NCBI GenBank assembly: GCA_022509065.1
Contig: JAFLTY010000019.1
Coordinates: forward strand, 1-46,536
Length of the DNA stretch: 46,536 nucleotides
Direction: 5' to 3'
From: Muribaculaceae bacterium
Lineage (GTDB): Bacteria > Bacteroidota > Bacteroidia > Bacteroidales > Muribaculaceae
The stretch's first letter is position 1. Every line of letters starts with the position of its first letter. The translations under genes were made by a program, and so were the position numbers. Below are positions 2,795 through 45,731 of this stretch, piece after piece. A model generated the notes under the pieces. That model was not told where the DNA came from and made no database searches. It worked only from the letters and a program-made list of their open reading frames with translations.

Positions 2795-4615
2795 TTATTT
2801 CAAAGCCTCTTTGACCAAACGGGCTTTTGCCGGTCCGATGATAGTGGCTACTTCCGGTAAGGACGCCTCGCGGATTCGTGCAACGCTTTTGAAGTGGCGT
2901 AACAAAGTGGTCGCTGTAGCGGGACCAATACCCTTAATATTGTTTAATTCGCTGTTAATCTGTGACTTGGAGCGTAAATCCCGGTGGAAAGTGATACCAA
3001 AGCGGTGGGCTTCATCGCGAAGGTGTTGAATAACTCGTAATGATTCACTGGTCTTGGATATGTATAGAGGCACCGAGTCGCCCGGAAAGTATATCTCTTC
3101 GAGTCGCTTGGCGATACCGACTACCGATATGACGCCGCGCAAACCTATGGCGTCGAGAGCCTCGACAGCAGCACTTAATTGCCCTTTGCCGCCATCTACG
3201 ACGATGAGCTGGGGCAAACCCTCTCCCTCTTGCATAAGTCGCGTGTAGCGGCGTGTGAGCACTTCGCGCATCGATGCGAAATCATCTGGTCCTTCGACAG
3301 TTTTTATTTTGAAGTGTCGATAGTCTTTCTTACTCGGTTTGCCGTTCTTGAAAACAACACACGATGCCACAGGATTGCTCCCCTGAATATTTGAATTGTC
3401 AAAACATTCAATATGTCGTGGCAGGTCAGGCAAACGAAAATCGGACTGCATGCGTTTGAGCAGTTGTTCGGTACGTTCCTCAGGGTTATGTTTCTCCATG
3501 TGCTTAAGGTCGTCAATACGTGCTTGACGGGCGTTGCGCTGTGATACCTCGAGGAGTTTGGCTTTATCTCCCCGTTGAGGAACAGTGAATGTCACGTCGG
3601 TCATCTCTATTTCGGGCACTGTCTCGACGATAACCTCGTCATATTTTATGCCGAATGTGGTGCGTATCTCTTCCATGGCAAGAGCGAGCAACTCGGCCAA
3701 ACTCTCTTCCAATCTGCGTTTGTATCGCAGTGTGACAGACCGTACGACGGCACCTCGACGCACATGCATGTAGTTGATATAGACGTCGCGGTCATCATCC
3801 TCAACGCCGAATACATCGATTTCGTTGATGGTTTGCGAGACAATGACGCTGCGACTTCGATAATTCAGCAACAAGTCATAGCGTTGCTTTACCATCTGTG
3901 CCTCTTCAAATCGCAACTCCAATGATAGTTTCTCCATCTCGGCTTTAAGATGATCGAGAAGTACATGTACATCGCCTCGAAGTATGTGTTTAATCTCGTC
4001 GATATATCTGTTATACTCCGTCGGAGATATTGCGCCGGTGCAGCATCCCGCGCATTTCTTGATATGATATTTTAGACACAGTCTACCCTTCCCTTTGCTG
4101 ATATATTCCTCCGTAATAGGTAGACGACATGTGCGTATGGGATATAGCTCCTCGATGAGTTTTAGCACCGTTTTAGCCACAGAGACATTTGTGTAGGGCC
4201 CGTAGTATTTTGTGCCGTCCTTTGTGTACTGGCGCGTCAGATAAACGCGTGGGTACGTCTCGTTGCTCACAGCTATCCATGGGTAGGACTTATCGTCCTT
4301 CAGCAATACGTTGTAGCGTGGCTGATGCTCCTTTATCATAGAATTTTCAAGATTAAGGGCATCCTGTTCCGTCGGCACCACGATATAGCTTAAATCGGCA
4401 ATCGCGCGCACTAACAGATTGGTACGCAGGCTGTCATGTGTCCGATTGAAGTATGACGATACACGTCGCTTAAGATTTTTAGCCTTACCGACATAGATAA
4501 TCTTACCCGACGCATCATAGTAGGTGTAAACACCCGGTGTGTCAGGCAGAAAAGATATTTTCTCTTTCAGCTCCGGTGATTTGTCATGCTTTGCCACATT
4601 ACCTCCAAACTTCAT
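2795..4615 (-). CDS. uvrC: Excinuclease ABC subunit C
   Basis: UvrC makes the two incisions around bulky DNA lesions in the UvrABC complex. The 606 residues match the family length. The GIY-YIG nuclease domain is at about residues 22-100 (TPGVYTYYDASGKIIYVGKAKNL). A UVR helix pair that binds UvrB is near residues 208-240 (LELRFEEAQMVKQRYDLL). The RNase H-like domain has the catalytic residues D406 (FDNSN), D474 (VVDGGKGQ) and H544 (GITFHRD). A C-terminal helix-hairpin-helix pair covers about 550-606 (IKGIGPATATTLLRHF). The ATG at 4615 gives about 20 residues before the GIY domain, which is normal. apt lies upstream on the same strand with a 137-nt gap, so co-transcription is possible. Nothing is missing. 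Confidence 0.97.
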   Translation of the reverse strand: MKFGGNVAKHDKSPELKEKISFLPDTPGVYTYYDASGKIIYVGKAKNLKRRVSSYFNRTHDSLRTNLLVRAIADLSYIVVPTEQDALNLENSMIKEHQPRYNVLLKDDKSYPWIAVSNETYPRVYLTRQYTKDGTKYYGPYTNVSVAKTVLKLIEELYPIRTCRLPITEEYISKGKGRLCLKYHIKKCAGCCTGAISPTEYNRYIDEIKHILRGDVHVLLDHLKAEMEKLSLELRFEEAQMVKQRYDLLLNYRSRSVIVSQTINEIDVFGVEDDDRDVYINYMHVRRGAVVRSVTLRYKRRLEESLAELLALAMEEIRTTFGIKYDEVIVETVPEIEMTDVTFTVPQRGDKAKLLEVSQRNARQARIDDLKHMEKHNPEERTEQLLKRMQSDFRLPDLPRHIECFDNSNIQGSNPVASCVVFKNGKPSKKDYRHFKIKTVEGPDDFASMREVLTRRYTRLMQEGEGLPQLIVVDGGKGQLSAAVEALDAIGLRGVISVVGIAKRLEEIYFPGDSVPLYISKTSESLRVIQHLRDEAHRFGITFHRDLRSKSQINSELNNIKGIGPATATTLLRHFKSVARIREASLPEVATIIGPAKARLVKEALK

Positions 4616-4752: not shown

Positions 4753-5271
4753 TCAATATGTTATCAGCGAAGTAATCTCAGCGTCCTTGGGCAGTATGTC
4801 GCGTCCTTTGAGAGCGGAAAGTTCGATTATGAAGTTGATATAAATCTTTTTGGGATTCATTGATTTGACCAGTTCATAAACGGCGGCCATAGTTCCTCCG
4901 GTAGCCAAGACATCATCGTGCAGTACAACAATATCATCTTCTGTAATTGCATCGCGATGAATCTCGATGACATCTGTTCCATACTCCTTTTTATATTCTG
5001 CGCGTACAGTGTCGGCGGGCAGTTTACCGGGCTTACGTGCGGGAACAAAACCTGCGCCGAGTTCAAAAGCCAGTATTGAACCACCGATAAAACCTCGCGA
5101 TTCAACACCTACGACCTTGGTCACTCCTTTGTCTCGGTATAGTTGACCCAAGTCCCATCCGATGATGTGAAGGGCACGAGGATCCTTAAAAACTGTTGTA
5201 AGATCCTTAAATACGATTCCTTTTGAGGGAAAATCTTCTACGTCGCGTACTCTTTTCTTTACGTATTCCAT
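4753..5271 (-). CDS. apt: Adenine phosphoribosyltransferase
   Basis: The enzyme converts adenine and PRPP to AMP and pyrophosphate in cytoplasmic purine salvage. The 172 residues match the family. The start has the typical DFPSKGIVFKDLTTVFKDP segment (residues 13-31). ESRGFIGG (57-64) and PARKPGKLP (77-85) are family signatures. The PRPP loop is VVLHDDVLATGGTM (115-128) with the paired aspartates D119 and D120. It sits between uvrC and a 593-bp repeat-rich region. No clear promoter box was found immediately upstream. Confidence 0.97.
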   Translation of the reverse strand: MEYVKKRVRDVEDFPSKGIVFKDLTTVFKDPRALHIIGWDLGQLYRDKGVTKVVGVESRGFIGGSILAFELGAGFVPARKPGKLPADTVRAEYKKEYGTDVIEIHRDAITEDDIVVLHDDVLATGGTMAAVYELVKSMNPKKIYINFIIELSALKGRDILPKDAEITSLITY

Positions 5272-5296
5272 TTTGTGTGTTGTTATTTAATTTATG

Positions 5297-5380
5297 TTGT
5301 GATTATACGATTGGATTTGTTGATAATATACGATGGGTTTTTGTGATTATACGATTGGATTTGTTGATAATATACGATGG
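5297..5380. repeat. 40-bp direct repeat, period 44
   Basis: Positions 5297-5336 and 5341-5380 are identical over 40 bases, starting TTGTGATTATACGATTGG and ending ATATACGATGG, with a 4-base spacer. Each copy contains one TGTTGATAA. Confidence 0.9.
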
Positions 5381-5432
5381 TTTTCTAATTAGCAGTAAGA
5401 TTTCTAATATGAAAAATGTTAGCAGAATGCCT

Positions 5433-5540
5433 ATTCATATTAAAAAGCTTATTCATATTAGAATGCTAAATCATATTAAAATGTCTATTCATATTAAAAT
5501 GCTCAATCATATTAAAAGTCTATTCATATTAGAATAATAG
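5433..5540. repeat. Six tandem 17-18-bp iterons
   Basis: Units start at 5433, 5451, 5469, 5487, 5505 and 5522 with consensus AWTCATATTAAAATGCTM. The first base pairs alternate between ATTCATATTA and AATCATATTA. Spacing of 18 bp is close to two helical turns, so bound proteins would lie about the same face. There are no spacers of the CRISPR kind. Confidence 0.88.
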
Positions 5541-5633
5541 CTCTTTATAAATGTTGATAACTATTATTTAATCTCATGATGTCGATGACGAAATAGGTGT
5601 AATCAACTGAAATTATATTCATTATAATAGAAT

Positions 5634-5649
5634 TGTTCCACGTGGAACA
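5634..5649. promoter_or_regulatory. parS-like ParB-binding site 1
   Basis: TGTTCCACGTGGAACA is a perfect 16-bp palindrome. It differs from the widely conserved parS sequence TGTTTCACGTGAAACA only by symmetric changes at positions 5 and 12, a variant compatible with known ParB sites. It lies in non-coding DNA about 216 bp from the mnmG stop. Confidence 0.75.
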
Positions 5650-5864
5650 GGGAATGGTTGCTGTAATTTTACAATAAAAAATATAAAATCCATTATATAG
5701 TTTCCAATTCTCGTTTACGTTCAAGAACCTTGTTTAGCCTCAAATTCTATAAGTTTTATTGCTCTATTGGTATGTTTTGAGGATTCTTAAGTTAATAATT
5801 GAGATGATAATCTTATATTATCGCTTTTAAATGGCGTATTTTTGATGTAATATCTCGTTGTGAT

Positions 5865-7745
5865 TTAGCGACCATGTAAAAGAAGCAAGATGTTAATATC
5901 TGCCGGAGATATGCCTGGAATGCGTGACGCTTGACCTATATTGGTAGGGCGATGGCGTTCCAGTTTCTGTCTGGCTTCCGTACTCAGAGAGTGCAGGTTT
6001 GAGTAGTCTATATCAGGCTTAATTCGCACATTCTCAAGCCTCATCAGCTTTTCTGCATTTTGTTTCTCTCTTTCGATATAGCCTTCGTATTTTAACAGAA
6101 TCTGGACAGCTTCAACTACTTCTTCCCTTATATTAACCGGGATAGAATCGATTTTATGTCTTAATTCTGTCAAATGTAAGGCCAATAAATCTATGGTTAT
6201 TTGAGGTCTGAGAACCAAATCTACTATTTTAACACCTTGTTTCAGTGGTGTAGAATTTACTTTTGCGAGAATGTCGTTTACTTGCTCAGGTTTGACAGAT
6301 GTTTCGCGGATAAATTTAATTAATTCGTCTCTATGAGACAGTTTTAACCTTAGGTTATTCATCCTTTTATCATCTACCAAGCCAAATTCGTAGCCAATAG
6401 GTGTCAGCCTTGCGTCCGCGTCATCCTGCCGTAACAGTATCCGATATTCCGCCCTGCTGGTAAACATACGATACGGTTCGTCAACGCCTTTTGTTATCAA
6501 ATCGTCGATTAGTACTCCTATATAAGCTTGGTCGCGGCGTAGTATCAGTTCTTTTTTGCCTTGCACCTTAAGTGCTGCGTTCGCTCCCGCTATAAGACCT
6601 TGACCTGCAGCTTCTTCGTAACCGGTTGTGCCGTTTATCTGTCCGGCAAAGTATAATCCATCAACGAGACGGGTTTCGAGTGTTGCTTTCAGATCGCGCG
6701 GGTCAAAGAAATCATATTCGATAGCATAACCCGGACGGTATATGCGGACGTTCCTCAGAGCAGGAATTGTTTTGAGCGCTTCTACCTGTATGTCAATAGG
6801 AAGTGAAGAGCTGAATCCGTTAAGGTAGTATTCCTGAGTGTTTTCGCCTTCGGGCTCAAGGAATAACTGGTGCTCGTTTTTATCAGCAAACGTTACTATT
6901 TTGGTTTCTATTGAGGGACAATATCTTGGTCCAATGCTTTGAATCTGCCCATTGTATAGAGGAGAGTCAGGCAACCCGCGTCTCAATACCTCATGTGTCT
7001 GAGGATTAGTGTATATAATATGACAGGGACGTTGTTTTAGACTTCTTTTAATTTCAGGGTCGAAGCTAAAACCATGATAATCACCATCGTCTCCTTGTTG
7101 TTCTGTTGTCAGAGTCCAATCTACCGAACGTCCGTCAATGCGTACAGGTGTTCCTGTCTTCATACGGTCGGCATGGAAACCTAATTGCACCAGTTGTTGT
7201 GTTAATCCGTGAGACGCAGGTTCGGACACTCGACCACCTTCTATCATAGTGCGGCCTATGTGCATCAATCCATTGAGAAAAGTTCCATTTGTGAGCACGA
7301 CAGCATTGGCTTTGATAGTGATGCCGTTGCGTGTCTTGACTCCTTGAACTTGCTTATTTTCAACGATTAGCTCTGTAACTTCGTCCTGCAGGATGTCAAG
7401 GTTTTCGGTGTTTTCGAGAATCTCACGCCATGCTATAGAAAATTTCACTCTGTCAGATTGAGAGCGCGGACTCCACATCGCAGGGCCTTTGGAACGGTTC
7501 AGCATACGAAATTGAATAGCTGTTTTATCGGTGACTTGTCCCATAAAACCACCGAGCGCGTCTATTTCGCGTACAATCTGACCTTTAGCTATTCCCCCTA
7601 CGGCCGGATTACAGCTCATCTGAGCTATCTTGTTCATATCCATCGTGATAAGGAGAGTATGTGCTCCTACACGAGCAGCCGCAGCGGCTGCTTCACACCC
7701 GGCATGACCGGCACCTACGATTATGACATCGTATTTTAATGTCAC
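5865..7745 (-). CDS. mnmG: tRNA uridine-5-carboxymethylaminomethyl modification enzyme MnmG (GidA)
   Basis: MnmG works with MnmE to install the carboxymethylaminomethyl group on wobble uridine 34 of certain tRNAs, using FAD, NADH and a methylene-THF-derived carbon. The 626 residues match the family. The FAD-binding motif is [18 protein letters not shown] (about 11-28). Other signatures are [22 protein letters not shown] (about 45-66), [28 protein letters not shown], the [21 protein letters not shown] segment and [15 protein letters not shown]. The C-terminal helical MnmE/tRNA-binding part ends in [19 protein letters not shown] canonical promoter lies about 135 nt upstream (7888-7918). In many bacteria gidA adjoins the replication origin. 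Confidence 0.97.
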
Positions 7746-7975: not shown

Positions 7976-8109
7976 ACATCTATCCAGCCAGCCTTAAACA
8001 CGAAAACTGAGTACAGTGAACAGCTATCCACCCAACTTTAAACACACAATCCTGATTACACAGAACAGCTATCCAGCCAACTTTCAAACGACAATCCTGC
8101 TATATAAAG
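7976..8109. repeat. Three degenerate 45-bp tandem repeats upstream of mnmG
   Basis: Units begin at 7976, 8020 and 8065. Each opens with ACAKCTATCCA[C/G]CCA, followed by a CTTTMAAAC-like stretch and then ACAATCCTG in the second and third units. Weaker similar pieces extend on both sides (CCAGCCTAATTTC near 7928; ATCTATCAGCC near 8115). CTATCCACC resembles a DnaA box at its core. The array lies between the mnmG promoter and the ybeY stop. The rest of the 491-bp gap (7746-8236) shows no gene. Confidence 0.7.
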
Positions 8110-8236: not shown

Positions 8237-8656
8237 TTATTGTTGAGGCAAAAGCGCAAGAGCCTCGTTTTCATGGGCTTCCATTATCTCTCTTTCGCCC
8301 GGAGCCTTGTCGTTGATGCCACACAGATGCAGAACGCCATGAATGATGACTCGCATTAATTCTTGTCCATAATCGACATTCTGGAGTTCGGAGTTGGACT
8401 TCACTGTGTCAACTGAAATATACATATCGCCTGAAATAACACCCCGTTTTGAATAGTCAAAAGTTATAATATCAGTGTAGTAATCGTGTTGAAGGAACTG
8501 GCGGTTAACATTAAGAATGTTATCGTCGTCAGTGAAGATATAGTTTAATGTTCCAACCTTTTTGTTATGCGCCTCAGTTACCTTTATAATCCAGTCTGCA
8601 ACCCTGGATTGGTTAAAGTCGGGCATTGTGGTGTTTTCAGTATTAAATATTATCAT
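8237..8656 (-). CDS. ybeY: Endoribonuclease YbeY, Bacteroidota form
   Basis: YbeY is a metal-dependent endoribonuclease in 16S rRNA maturation and ribosome quality control. The 139 residues match the short Bacteroidota form. The motif HGVLHLCGINDK (about residues 109-120) gives two of the usual zinc-ligand histidines. The third His of the textbook HGxLHLxGYDH motif is replaced by NDK, as I recall for other Bacteroidota members. The DIITFDY segment (about 64-70) is the family's D-x-x-T-F-x-Y signature. It sits between mnmG and the spmAB-like gene on the same strand. Confidence 0.9.
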   Translation of the reverse strand: MIIFNTENTTMPDFNQSRVADWIIKVTEAHNKKVGTLNYIFTDDDNILNVNRQFLQHDYYTDIITFDYSKRGVISGDMYISVDTVKSNSELQNVDYGQELMRVIIHGVLHLCGINDKAPGEREIMEAHENEALALLPQQ

Positions 8657-10261: not shown

Positions 10262-11242
10262 ATGTTAATTTTCAAAATTGCACCAAATTTAGACTATCCC
10301 GACACCTGTCTTCAGGAAAGAGGGGTAGAAGTGCAACTTGTGGCACCATCAATTTTTTCTTTCCTTACGTCCGTGAGGATTTCGAGCCAAGCAAAAAAAA
10401 AAATACCGGATGCGATTTTTGTGTACACCGTAAAAGAGGCGCTTTCGGCTACCTCGGCTCGACGCCTCCTCAACGGCTTTGATGAACCTCAAAAAAAACA
10501 TTACACTGAGGTAAGTCAACACGGCCAACACTCGGGACGAAAAATTATTTCCCCACTGCCTATTGTCTTCTTTGTGACCAGTGAGACCAAATGTCCACTA
10601 TCGATACCTGCCGAAGTATGTGAAGGAATAGATGCCATAGTGTTTGACAACGAAACTACCCGGCAGAAATGGCATCAAGTAAAAAACATCGAAAAGATAA
10701 AAAGACAGGAACTGATTGTCCGGCCTGCAATCGAAAGAACACTTCCTGACAAAACATCTACCCGAGCAAAGTATGAGATAGCGGATAATAAAACAGTTAT
10801 AGAGTTTATTGGTAATCTAAACACATCCGTCAATCTGCGAAAAGCTTTGGACAACCTGGTCAAGACGAGAGAAGCTGAAAGATTTGCTATCCGTATATGC
10901 GGCACGGCAAAACCAGGCAACGTCATGCCACTGGTAAAGCGCATGAGAGGCACAGGTGTGGATGTCAAGTGGTTAGGAGAAGATTATATTCTTGCTGACG
11001 AATTGGCGCTTGCAGACGCTTTTATACAATCGGAGGCCTCTCCTGACGAAAACGAAATATTTCTGCTTTCGCGGGGAATACCTTCAATACCCCCGAACAG
11101 CTTTAGCGAGGTAGTTATGACTACACGTCAAGAGTCGCCAAGTAAGGAAAATAATGAAGATGAGAAGTCACAGTTGACCGACTTGTACTCCCCTGCCGGG
11201 TATGCGGACAGAGTGTTGAATCTTATTGAACAACTGAGATGA
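10262..11242 (+). CDS. Glycosyltransferase-like protein (GT-B/GT4-like, divergent)
   Basis: The cytoplasmic protein has 326 residues and no signal peptide or membrane span. Near residues 98-104 the chain has IVFFVTSET, then a segment ending QELIVRPAIER (about 150-160), then VIEFIGNLNTSVNLRKALDNL (about 178-198) and FAIRICGTAKPG. This order, an N-terminal Rossmann-like half, a linker and a second Rossmann-like half with FIGNL, resembles GT4-type glycosyltransferases. The canonical EX7E donor motif is not clear. The stop overlaps the start of the WaaP-like kinase by 4 nt, so the pair probably acts together on an envelope glycan. The function is a weak call from fold pattern and partner. Confidence 0.5.
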   Translation: MLIFKIAPNLDYPDTCLQERGVEVQLVAPSIFSFLTSVRISSQAKKKIPDAIFVYTVKEALSATSARRLLNGFDEPQKKHYTEVSQHGQHSGRKIISPLPIVFFVTSETKCPLSIPAEVCEGIDAIVFDNETTRQKWHQVKNIEKIKRQELIVRPAIERTLPDKTSTRAKYEIADNKTVIEFIGNLNTSVNLRKALDNLVKTREAERFAIRICGTAKPGNVMPLVKRMRGTGVDVKWLGEDYILADELALADAFIQSEASPDENEIFLLSRGIPSIPPNSFSEVVMTTRQESPSKENNEDEKSQLTDLYSPAGYADRVLNLIEQLR

Positions 11243-12018
11243 AGACACGCGTTCATATAAATCCGAAATACGAAAGCAAGTACGGCGATTTTGTACGCAG
11301 ACTGGCCAATGAAGGAATGCCTTCGAGAGCCGAAAGCCTATATTCCGGACGCAACCATATATATAAAATTCCAATAGGCGAAGAAGCGGTCAATGTGAAA
11401 TCTTTCCGACGACCCTCTGTTTTCAACTCATTGGTGTACACTAATTTTCGTAAAAGTAAAGCCAGACGTTCATACGAAAACGCACTATACTTAATCGCTC
11501 ATGACCTCCCTACCCCGGCTCCAATTGCGTGGATAGAAAAGAAAAGCGGTGGACGTTTAAGCGAGAGTTATTACATTTGTGAACAGTCCCCCTATGAAAA
11601 CAATCTGCGAATATGGGAGAAGTGGGATGAGGCAACGAGAGATAAAGTTTTGTATAAATACGCCCGTCTGATGGTAAAGATACACGAGGCAGGGGTGTGG
11701 CATCACGATCTGTCACCCGGCAACATTTTATGGACAGATACCGCTGATGACGACATCAAATTCCATATAGTGGATTTGAACCGTATGACGCTATTGAATC
11801 GCCCACTGAATACCAAAGAGCGATTCTCTAACTTCAGAAATATCAACCTCGTAAGCGCTGAGACAGCACGACTGGCACGACACTATGCGGACGCAGTGGG
11901 CATGAGCCCAGACAAGGCCGAACAACTTGCTGTCAAGACCCTCGCCGACGACAGGAAAAGGAAGGAACGACTCCATAAAATAAAGAAAATCATTAAAATG
12001 TTTCACGTGAAACGTTAA
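11239..12018 (+). CDS. Lipopolysaccharide kinase family protein (WaaP/Kdo kinase-like)
   Basis: The protein has 259 residues and a protein-kinase-like fold. A probable ATP-anchoring Lys is K54 (AVNVKSF). The catalytic loop is HHDLSPGNILW, with D157 and N162. The metal-binding Asp equivalent to DFG is D179 in FHIVDLNRM. Family members phosphorylate Kdo or heptose in the inner core of LPS at the inner face of the cytoplasmic membrane. It overlaps the upstream glycosyltransferase-like gene by ATGA, supporting a shared pathway. The C-terminus is Lys-rich (KRKERLHKIKKIIK). Its last codons, encoding MFHVKR and stop, contain a parS-like palindrome (11999-12014). Confidence 0.8.
   Translation: MKTRVHINPKYESKYGDFVRRLANEGMPSRAESLYSGRNHIYKIPIGEEAVNVKSFRRPSVFNSLVYTNFRKSKARRSYENALYLIAHDLPTPAPIAWIEKKSGGRLSESYYICEQSPYENNLRIWEKWDEATRDKVLYKYARLMVKIHEAGVWHHDLSPGNILWTDTADDDIKFHIVDLNRMTLLNRPLNTKERFSNFRNINLVSAETARLARHYADAVGMSPDKAEQLAVKTLADDRKRKERLHKIKKIIKMFHVKR
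11999..12014. promoter_or_regulatory. parS-like ParB-binding site 2, inside the 3' end of the kinase gene
   Basis: TGTTTCACGTGAAACG matches the conserved bacterial parS sequence at 15 of 16 positions and has a perfect 14-bp palindromic core (12000-12013). It lies 6.4 kb from the other parS-like site at 5634-5649. Two such sites near each other fit an origin-proximal partition region. Confidence 0.82.
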
Positions 12019-12095: not shown

Positions 12096-13787
12096 ATGAT
12101 AATCAAAAGACAAACCCCCAACGAACTGATAGAGCTCCATATCACCAATCTTGACAAGACCATTGAAGTGGAGGGAGGCATAACCCTTCTTGAGGTAGCC
12201 AATCACCTGCAGACCGAATTAGGGTTCGAGCCCATAATGGCGTGTGTGAACAATAAGTACGAAGGGCTCCATTATCAGGTCTATGGACCAAAAAAAGTAG
12301 AGTTTCTCTCTAAAAATACCGAAGCGGGACGGCGCGTATATCTGCACAGCCTGTGCATGATGCTTTATTACGCACAGACCAAGACCTTCAGTGGCGCCAG
12401 CATGCGCATAGAGCACTATGTTTCGAACGGCCTTTTCGTTACGATAACTGGCGTTGAACCCACCGAGGACAACGCACTTGTACTTTCGGCAGTGATGCGT
12501 CGGCTGGTACAAAGCAATAAGCCTTTTGTTTATCATATAGCGTCGCTGACGAAAGCCATGGAGATATTCGAGAAACAAGGCTTGACCTCGAAAGTGATGT
12601 TGTTGAAGACCATTGACGAGATTGAATGGAACTACTATACCCTTGACGATGTGGCCGACAGTTTTTACGGCTGCCTGGCGCCACGCACCGGCATGATAGA
12701 CACCTTCTCGTTCAGCGCCTATAACGGCGAGGGATTTTTGCTGAAATCGTTCGATCCGGCCAATCCTACTACCGTACCACCCACAATACAGGAGCCACTG
12801 ATGTACCGTGCCTTTAAAGACTATTTGAAATTCAATAAAATAGTCGGGGTGAGCAATGTAGGGGAAATGAACCATGTCGTACTGAAAGGAAGACCGGCCG
12901 ACCTTATCAATGTTGCCGAGACCCTCCATAACCACTGGATCAGTTCGATAGGGGAGCGCATAGCCGAAAGATATAAAAAAGGCGAGGCACGTGTTGTTCT
13001 TGTCGCCGGCCCATCGTCGTCCGGTAAAACGACCACCACAAAGCGACTGGCAGTACAGTTGATGGCCAACCTGCTCAAGCCTGTCATTATCAGTCTTGAT
13101 AATTATTTCGTAGATAGGGAACACACACCGCGCGATGAAAAAGGCGACTATGATTTCGAACATATCAACGCTCTTGACATGGAGTTATTGAATGCCGACC
13201 TTAACCGTATACTCGCCGGAGAAGAAGTTGCGTTACCCACCTATAATTTCGAGACAGGCAAACGCACCTATCGCGGCAACACCATCCGTCTTGACGAAGG
13301 TTCGGTGCTGCTTATCGAGGGTATTCACGGCCTCAACGACATGTTGACATCGCAGATACCGGACAATATGAAATTCAAGCTATATGTATCGGCGCTGACG
13401 ACTCTTTCTATTGACAATCACAACTGGATATCGCCTACCGACAACCTGTTGCTTCGCCGCATAGTGCGCGACCATCGTTACCGCGGCATAAGCGCTCGCG
13501 AGAGCATCCGACGCTGGCCGTCGGTATGTCGAGGCGAGGACAGGTGGATATTCCCCTTTAAGGAAAATGCCGACGCCATGTTCAACTCGTCGCTGCTTTT
13601 TGAGCTGGCGGTGATTAAGGACTATGCCGAGACCTTATTGTCAGAGGTGCCGTCGAACTGTGCCGAGTATGCCGTGGCCTATCGGCTACGCAGGTTCCTG
13701 CGGTATTTCAGGCAGATAAGACCGGATGCAATACCTCCGACATCGCTGTTGCGTGAGTTCCTGGGTGGCTCGTCATTTAAGTATTGA
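12096..13787 (+). CDS. Nucleoside (uridine) kinase with TGS/threonyl-tRNA-synthetase-like N-terminus
   Basis: The protein has 563 residues. Residues 1-60 look like a TGS domain (TIEVEGGITLLEVANHLQ). Residues about 60-230 resemble the second additional domain of ThrRS/AlaRS, with an HSL...MMLYYA helix. The C-terminal half is a P-loop kinase of the uridine kinase/phosphoribulokinase family: Walker A GPSSSGKT at 305-312, SLDNYFVDREHTPRDEKGDYDFEHINALD as the nucleoside-binding and DFD-like stretch, and VLLIEGIHGLN. Such fusions are common in Bacteroidota and Clostridia and are presumed to phosphorylate uridine or cytidine; the synthetase-like half has no demonstrated job that I know of. It starts 77 nt after the kinase gene. 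Confidence 0.88.
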   Translation: MIIKRQTPNELIELHITNLDKTIEVEGGITLLEVANHLQTELGFEPIMACVNNKYEGLHYQVYGPKKVEFLSKNTEAGRRVYLHSLCMMLYYAQTKTFSGASMRIEHYVSNGLFVTITGVEPTEDNALVLSAVMRRLVQSNKPFVYHIASLTKAMEIFEKQGLTSKVMLLKTIDEIEWNYYTLDDVADSFYGCLAPRTGMIDTFSFSAYNGEGFLLKSFDPANPTTVPPTIQEPLMYRAFKDYLKFNKIVGVSNVGEMNHVVLKGRPADLINVAETLHNHWISSIGERIAERYKKGEARVVLVAGPSSSGKTTTTKRLAVQLMANLLKPVIISLDNYFVDREHTPRDEKGDYDFEHINALDMELLNADLNRILAGEEVALPTYNFETGKRTYRGNTIRLDEGSVLLIEGIHGLNDMLTSQIPDNMKFKLYVSALTTLSIDNHNWISPTDNLLLRRIVRDHRYRGISARESIRRWPSVCRGEDRWIFPFKENADAMFNSSLLFELAVIKDYAETLLSEVPSNCAEYAVAYRLRRFLRYFRQIRPDAIPPTSLLREFLGGSSFKY

Positions 13788-27342: not shown

Positions 27343-27372
27343 TTTGGTATATAACAGAAAATTATTAACTTT
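27343..27372 (+). promoter_or_regulatory. Promoter of the structured RNA
   Basis: TTTG (27343-27346), 18 nt, then TAACTTTG (27365-27372). It fits the Bacteroidota pattern. It predicts a start near 27379, about 350 nt before the next gene. Confidence 0.7.
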
Positions 27373-27378
27373 GCGTCA

Positions 27379-45670: not shown

Positions 45671-45731
45671 ATTAGCTACCATAGCTATCAGCTACTATAG
45701 CTACTTTAGCTAATATAGCTACCTTAGCTAT
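45671..45731. repeat. AGCTA tandem repeat
   Basis: About six units of 10-11 bp with core TAGCTAYYWT, from ATTAGCTACC to CCTTAGCTATT. AGCT is itself palindromic, so the array can be read the same way on either strand. It lies between the terminator and the ferritin stop. Confidence 0.7.

Follow-up and report, generated by a model that had tools for sequence, protein, structure and literature searches.

The window, i.e., the whole stretch of DNA analyzed (46,536 nucleotides on contig C11 of genome G000, a Muribaculaceae bacterium), contains a conserved chromosomal gene cluster, ybeY-mnmG-apt-uvrC. Within this cluster, a 593-bp gap (5272-5864; 74% A+T) is bordered by apt on one side and by mnmG on the other. 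A preliminary description had presented the gap as non-coding, AT-rich, and full of repeats, and these features were confirmed with small corrections. A mechanically called 104-aa ORF overlaps it, but had no Pfam match at E ≤ 0.01, and the idea of a peptide encoded in the repeats was therefore dropped. A structured RNA or tRNA was also rejected, as the window gave neither an Rfam match at the gathering threshold nor a tRNA match. The features of the locus are as follows:

2795..4615, minus strand: uvrC (Pfam UvrC domains)
4753..5271, minus strand: apt, downstream neighbor of the gap (Pfam Pribosyltran; name from the preliminary description and gene order)
5223..5537, plus strand: 104-aa ORF call overlapping the gap
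5297..5384, no strand: 44-bp direct repeat in two copies (5297-5340 and 5341-5384), 98% identical, with one TGTTGATAA each
5318..5326, minus strand: DnaA-box-like TTATCAACA, exact 9-mer, in the 44-bp repeat
5362..5370, minus strand: DnaA-box-like TTATCAACA, exact 9-mer, in the 44-bp repeat
5425..5535, no strand: six AT-rich 18-bp direct repeats (iterons), from TRF and core positions
5552..5560, minus strand: DnaA-box-like TTATCAACA, exact 9-mer
5634..5649, no strand: parS TGTTCCACGTGGAACA, perfect 16-bp palindrome, predicted ParB-binding site
5865..7745, minus strand: mnmG (gidA), upstream neighbor of the gap (Pfam GIDA, E 2.6e-162)
8237..8656, minus strand: ybeY (Pfam YbeY)
11999..12014, no strand: second parS-like site TGTTTCACGTGAAACG, one mismatch to TGTTYCACGTGRAACA
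24068 and 24587: exact DnaA boxes TTATCCACA, inside an S1-domain gene

The core of the iterons, TCATATTA[AG]A, starts at 5435, 5453, 5471, 5489, 5507, and 5524. The six units described earlier are thus present, but the phasing claimed for them holds for four spacings of 18 bp and fails at the last one, which is 17 bp. TRF reported the array at 5426-5535 (period 18, 6.2 copies, 76% matches), and the lag-18 periodicity observed was reached by none of 3000 dinucleotide shuffles of the gap. The direct repeat was likewise found, with a length of 44 bp instead of the 40 bp first given. As noted before, TGTTGATAA occurs three times in the window, all within the gap (5318, 5362, and 5552); because two of these sites sit in the duplicated 44-mer, only two are independent. 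The shuffled gaps never contained three copies, contained two copies twice and one copy 78 times. Window-wide, 13 DnaA-box matches with at most one mismatch were counted versus 11.9 expected, i.e., no enrichment. The boxes of the gap lie between parS and the start of apt, and their 9-mer TTATCAACA is also present in the modules predicted as origins of relatives (see below).

The perfect 16-bp palindrome reported earlier was recovered exactly at 5634-5649, where TGTTYCACGTGRAACA is matched without mismatch. It shares 14 of 16 letters with the consensus TGTTTCACGTGAAACA for the chromosomal parS of ParABS systems in the consulted part of PMC10197239, and the change is symmetric. As the palindrome is a canonical parS, the gap is most likely a partition locus. 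No other copy of TGTTCCACGTGGAACA was found at up to one mismatch in the 2.28-Mb assembly of G000 (91 contigs, completeness 95%). The second parS-like site of the window is placed 6.4 kb from the first, within the final 20 bp of a Kdo/WaaP-kinase-like ORF (11239-12018).

The position of the site was surveyed in 49 genomes forming one computed genus-level group, using TGTTYCACGTGRAACA with up to one mismatch and the reversed pattern as control. Sites were found in 46 of these genomes, and 40 of the 46 had exactly one; G004, G035, and G037 had none at one mismatch. The control gave no match in G000 and seven over all 49 genomes. Without exception, the 46 site-bearing genomes carry the site directly 3' of mnmG. 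It starts 1-15 bp past the mnmG stop in 39 of 44 genomes, the five exceptions being G008 (-12 bp), G014 (49 bp), G042 (77 bp), G011 (205 bp), and the window itself (215 bp). The corresponding distances are 27 bp in G032 and 9 bp in G047. These two genomes have many parS-like sites (10 and 6, respectively), several of them inside long ORFs, and a second site is present in G011 as well, at a distance of 4.9 kb from the first one there and in a different place from that of the window.

The same arrangement was observed in a broader set of 80 related mnmG loci, which were the best 80 of at least 587 by mnmG similarity. Their titles are nearly all Bacteroidales and include Bacteroides, Parabacteroides, Porphyromonas, Alistipes, Paludibacter, and Carboxylicivirga; among the matches listed, the nearest mnmG relatives are 67-71% identical and spread over several families. 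The site starts between -30 and +120 bp from the mnmG stop in 72 of the 80 loci (median 8 bp). This slot of 151 positions held 77 sites and the rest of the 1.0 Mb held 24, with none for the reversed control; it was empty in eight loci (L060, L063, L070, L083, L087, L101, L103, and L106).

G000 encodes both a chromosomal-type ParA and a chromosomal-type ParB. One ParB_N protein was found, on contig C4 (E 9.5e-36), and its gene adjoins that of a ParA-type ATPase and lies near one for an MltD-like transglycosylase. The N-terminal and helix-turn-helix parts of the protein align with chromosomal ParB/Spo0J chains of solved structure, and it contains what we take to be the GERR and ENIQRED motifs. 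Boxes of the TTATCAACA type also precede the predicted start of parA by 68-127 bp, both in G000 and in each of the five family genomes inspected (L148-L153); four of these five have them as pairs spaced 20 bp apart. This sequence pattern suggests that DnaA may act on parAB.

Local GC skew across the 46-kb window was too noisy for use. Because G000 is split into 91 contigs, the relation of parS to the skew minimum was read from relatives. Sampled GC skew in G112, a single contig, rises from -0.098 at 1.32 Mb to +0.076 at 1.41 Mb, next to parS (1.42 Mb); it reverses again between 2.98 and 3.10 Mb, approximately at the antipode. Against this, gene orientation in the G112 samples lacked the usual leading-strand excess, and the skew of G130 was noisy. 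The cumulative GC-skew minimum lies 43 kb from parS in G112, 14 kb in G111, and 32 kb in G060, taken as the minima of fetched stretches of 120-185 kb in 1-kb steps. All 20 of the 16S genes found in five complete or near-complete family genomes (1 to 5 contigs) point away from parS, where one orientation in G111 assumes that the main contig closes into a circle. The origin module introduced below shares a contig with parS in 9 of 16 module-bearing genomes, at distances of 11-116 kb; the two are on different contigs in the other seven, including G000. By skew, 16S orientation, and distance to the module, the parS locus is origin-proximal in relatives. The earlier statement that mnmG lies near origins holds in relatives at the scale of 11-116 kb. 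Both parB and dnaA are distant from parS: G112 has parB at 0.45 Mb and dnaA at 0.78 Mb, and G130 (3.34 Mb) has dnaA within the first kb, with its parS located at 1.74 Mb.

In G112, G111, and G060 alike, one gene pair is located near the skew minimum, consisting of nadA, identified by translation and Pfam search, and a partner that we take to be leuS. A search for nadA gave matches in 44 of 48 genomes. Of the 30 genus loci taken for reading, 27 entered a first reading of boxes and spacings. In 23 of the 30, nadA is preceded by an AT-rich block of ~400 bp that contains similarly spaced TTATCAACA-type boxes and an element TTATTAACTTTGCA; the box at the end of the block is followed by ATTATTATT or a variant of it. 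A profile of this module was trained on the 23 loci, leaving out L231, L234, L240, L242, L246, L247, and L248, where the module was absent by eye. Profile matches at 1376767-1377114 in G112, 2944518-2944916 in G111, and 1183115-1183518 in G060 lie within ~1.5 kb of the skew minima (1377000, 2946000, and 1184000, respectively); nadA had been chosen for its nearness to these minima, so the agreement in G060 and G111, and to a lesser degree in G112, is partly by construction. The modules of G111 and G060 are directly upstream of nadA, and the fuller match of G112 coincides with the minimum, at a distance of 3 kb from nadA.

An alignment (A1) comprised 22 of the 23 training loci plus G060, L065, and G111, with L221 omitted as a near-duplicate of L220. 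A model, R1, was run on 14 genomes, seven without a module at nadA and seven others. It matched 13 of the 14 at E ≤ 6e-14, including G017 and G028, which had supplied training sequences, while the best match in G020 (82% complete) was no better than E 0.15. R1 gave two matches 3 kb apart in G112, one at the skew minimum (1376968-1377150) and a partial one upstream of nadA (1380028-1380153; profile E 2.8e-11, model E 8.2e-14), and the module of this genome may be split or part-duplicated.

The nadA gene of G000 has no upstream module. This first suggested that the origin had moved from nadA to the gap, an idea that was dropped when the module was found on C43, an 11.5-kb contig. The match there (C43:368-578, E 5.9e-14) is AT-rich and lies at the contig end (L262, L270); the next match had E 0.25, and nine matches at E ≤ 10 included none on C11, with 150 of 872 first-look candidates scored. 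A sequence that by eye resembles a tRNA 3' end directly precedes the C43 module. When R1 was run directly on the window, nothing was found at E ≤ 10, and the same run recovered the C43 module. A second, wider profile, which included the C43 module itself, gave a best window match of 25 bp at 27350-27374 (E 0.05) and nothing above noise in the gap, where the best match was 13 bp (5549-5561, E 14). The module on C43 is thus most likely the replication origin of G000, as far as its sequence tells. A likeness in box spacing, 190 + 44 bp in the gap and 190 + 43 bp at the nadA locus L232, was considered as possible homology and set aside as coincidence, because the boxes, taken in that order, have the opposite strand, and no match is given by the models.

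The repeats of the gap behave differently from parS when relatives are compared. A search of the gap in the 47 other genus genomes gave matches mostly around parS (query 355-398); among the matches listed, the best one outside parS was 24 bp within the 44-mer (G025, E 0.0012 for one genome), others were weaker, and the iterons and the 44-bp repeat had short chance-level matches alone. The iterons were thus not seen in relatives with conserved apt-mnmG synteny, and G000 itself showed no further copy of the arrays among the matches listed. Gap length ranges from 53 to 593 bp in the genus, and is 53-112 bp in 40 of the 43 other genomes measured. To judge from these comparisons, the iterons, the 44-bp repeat, and the three TTATCAACA are apparently private to the lineage. 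A separate 45-bp tandem repeat (2.8 copies) is present at 7976-8099, in the gap between ybeY and mnmG.

Taken together, we favor, with a probability of roughly 0.88, the explanation that the gap holds a parS centromere located tens of kb from the origin, that the origin is most likely the module on C43, and that the repeats are a lineage-specific expansion. ParB, encoded elsewhere together with ParA, would load on the palindrome and would spread across the ybeY-mnmG-apt-uvrC neighborhood, and ParA would then separate the newly copied origin regions. We infer this course of ParB binding, segregation, and replication start at C43 from the observed sequences, their conservation, and the skew and 16S orientation of relatives. 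The role of partition locus proposed in the preliminary description agrees well with the canonical parS, its fixed place beside mnmG in the genus and in the related loci, its nearness to the origin of relatives, and the presence of ParA and ParB. Its other proposal, origin function, is not supported: it would have the gap itself serve as replication origin, with iterons and TTATCAACA loading DnaA and opening the AT-rich DNA beside parS. The gap does have the composition, the iterons, and three boxes of the form seen in relatives' origin modules, and the genus-type module is missing upstream of nadA in G000. However, that module is present on C43, the origin models find nothing above noise in the gap and R1 nothing in the window, the repeats were not seen in relatives, and the skew minima of three relatives are found 14-43 kb from the locus, next to a different, conserved DnaA-box module. 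We therefore regard an origin in the gap as very improbable. An even slighter chance is given to the palindrome being a site for Noc or another regulator instead of parS. By E-value, the NCBIfam family that the ParB protein matches best is indeed TIGR04285 nucleoid_noc, but the score of 244.5 is below the cut-off of 315, whereas TIGR00180 parB_part scores 181.9, above its cut-off of 58.45. Moreover, the single ParB_N protein found in this 95%-complete assembly is encoded beside ParA, no separate Noc protein was found there, and the palindrome is at most two mismatches from the parS consensus in the part of PMC10197239 consulted.

As for the repeats, the simplest reading is neutral expansion around a working parS. 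That they are neutral minisatellites in an enlarged gap, in which parS alone matters, is compatible with the parS-centromere explanation and in our judgment probable. Further non-coding tandem arrays occur in G000 at 7976-8099, 45672-45730, and L280:4058-4153 (123 kb examined), and gap length varies within the genus. Against this stand the clustering of three arrays within 3 kb around mnmG, with seven of the nine stretches examined free of any array, and the match of the boxes to the DnaA-box form of the lineage. Since the boxes have the form of the lineage's predicted origins, they might bind DnaA, and the cluster of TTATCAACA and iterons could be a lineage-specific DnaA-binding site for regulation or titration, acting for example on apt or on the coupling of initiation and segregation. 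Such a role would fit the box clustering, which exceeds that of the shuffles, the position of the boxes between parS and the apt start, and the similar boxes upstream of parA. We nevertheless consider it unlikely, given the chance-level short matches alone in the other genus genomes (among the matches listed), the origin of two of the three boxes in one duplication, and the minisatellite in another nearby gap (7976-8099). More doubtful still is that DnaA, by binding the TTATCAACA/iteron array, would create a joint DnaA-ParB site linking replication start with segregation, or a second, incipient origin.

Origins of iteron plasmids consist of phased direct repeats of ~18 bp in AT-rich DNA, and the gap is similar to them in both respects. 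It differs in its setting within a chromosomal gene cluster, in having repeats not seen in relatives, and in the lack of a Rep initiator gene among the neighbors tested, the nearest being ybeY, mnmG, apt, and uvrC. The palindrome resembles the chromosomal parS of ParABS systems, with which the site shares the 16-bp palindrome, the origin-proximal position in relatives, and the accompanying ParA and ParB. Unlike that system, the main site here is fixed directly 3' of mnmG, and parB and dnaA are distant in G112 and G130.

A Hi-C study of the OMM12 community, including Muribaculum intestinale and Bacteroides caecimuris, used parS and skew to locate the origins of 12 gut bacteria and, in the part consulted, reports that dnaA is not always at the origin (PMC10197239). 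Nearness of parS to the origin is common to those bacteria and to the present locus, whereas the consulted text, unlike the present work, mentions neither mnmG nor an origin sequence module. For Prevotella intermedia OMA14, the corresponding part of PMC4755523 describes a predicted oriC with DnaA boxes that lies at a skew transition and far from dnaA, and states that oriC is commonly far from dnaA in Bacteroidetes; that region is the origin itself, unlike the gap. A position of mnmG beside parS is absent from the consulted text of both papers, and no published statement of an order-wide parS position was found in the open-access literature searched.

Little has been described of chromosome biology in Bacteroidales, a major group of gut bacteria. 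With the parS at the mnmG stop (72 of 80 loci, median 8 bp) as a cheap landmark, the likely centromere can be located in draft genomes. The origin module linked to it indicates where replication is likely to start, which is useful when growth rates are estimated from read depth, a task in which dnaA would mislead. The locus also illustrates that a repeat-rich gap adjoining gidA may resemble an origin without being one. Module matches were also seen ~5 kb beyond mnmG in L065 (Prevotellaceae; 12811-13213) and L070 (Paludibacter; 12183-12453), hinting at a linkage of origin and parS that reaches beyond the family; L065 itself was part of the wider profile, and both loci had matched the first profile too. 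Finally, 25 extra PF00308 matches in G112 were traced to a repeated 262-aa ATPase, probably an insertion-sequence helper, whose weak DnaA-domain matches inflate searches for DnaA.
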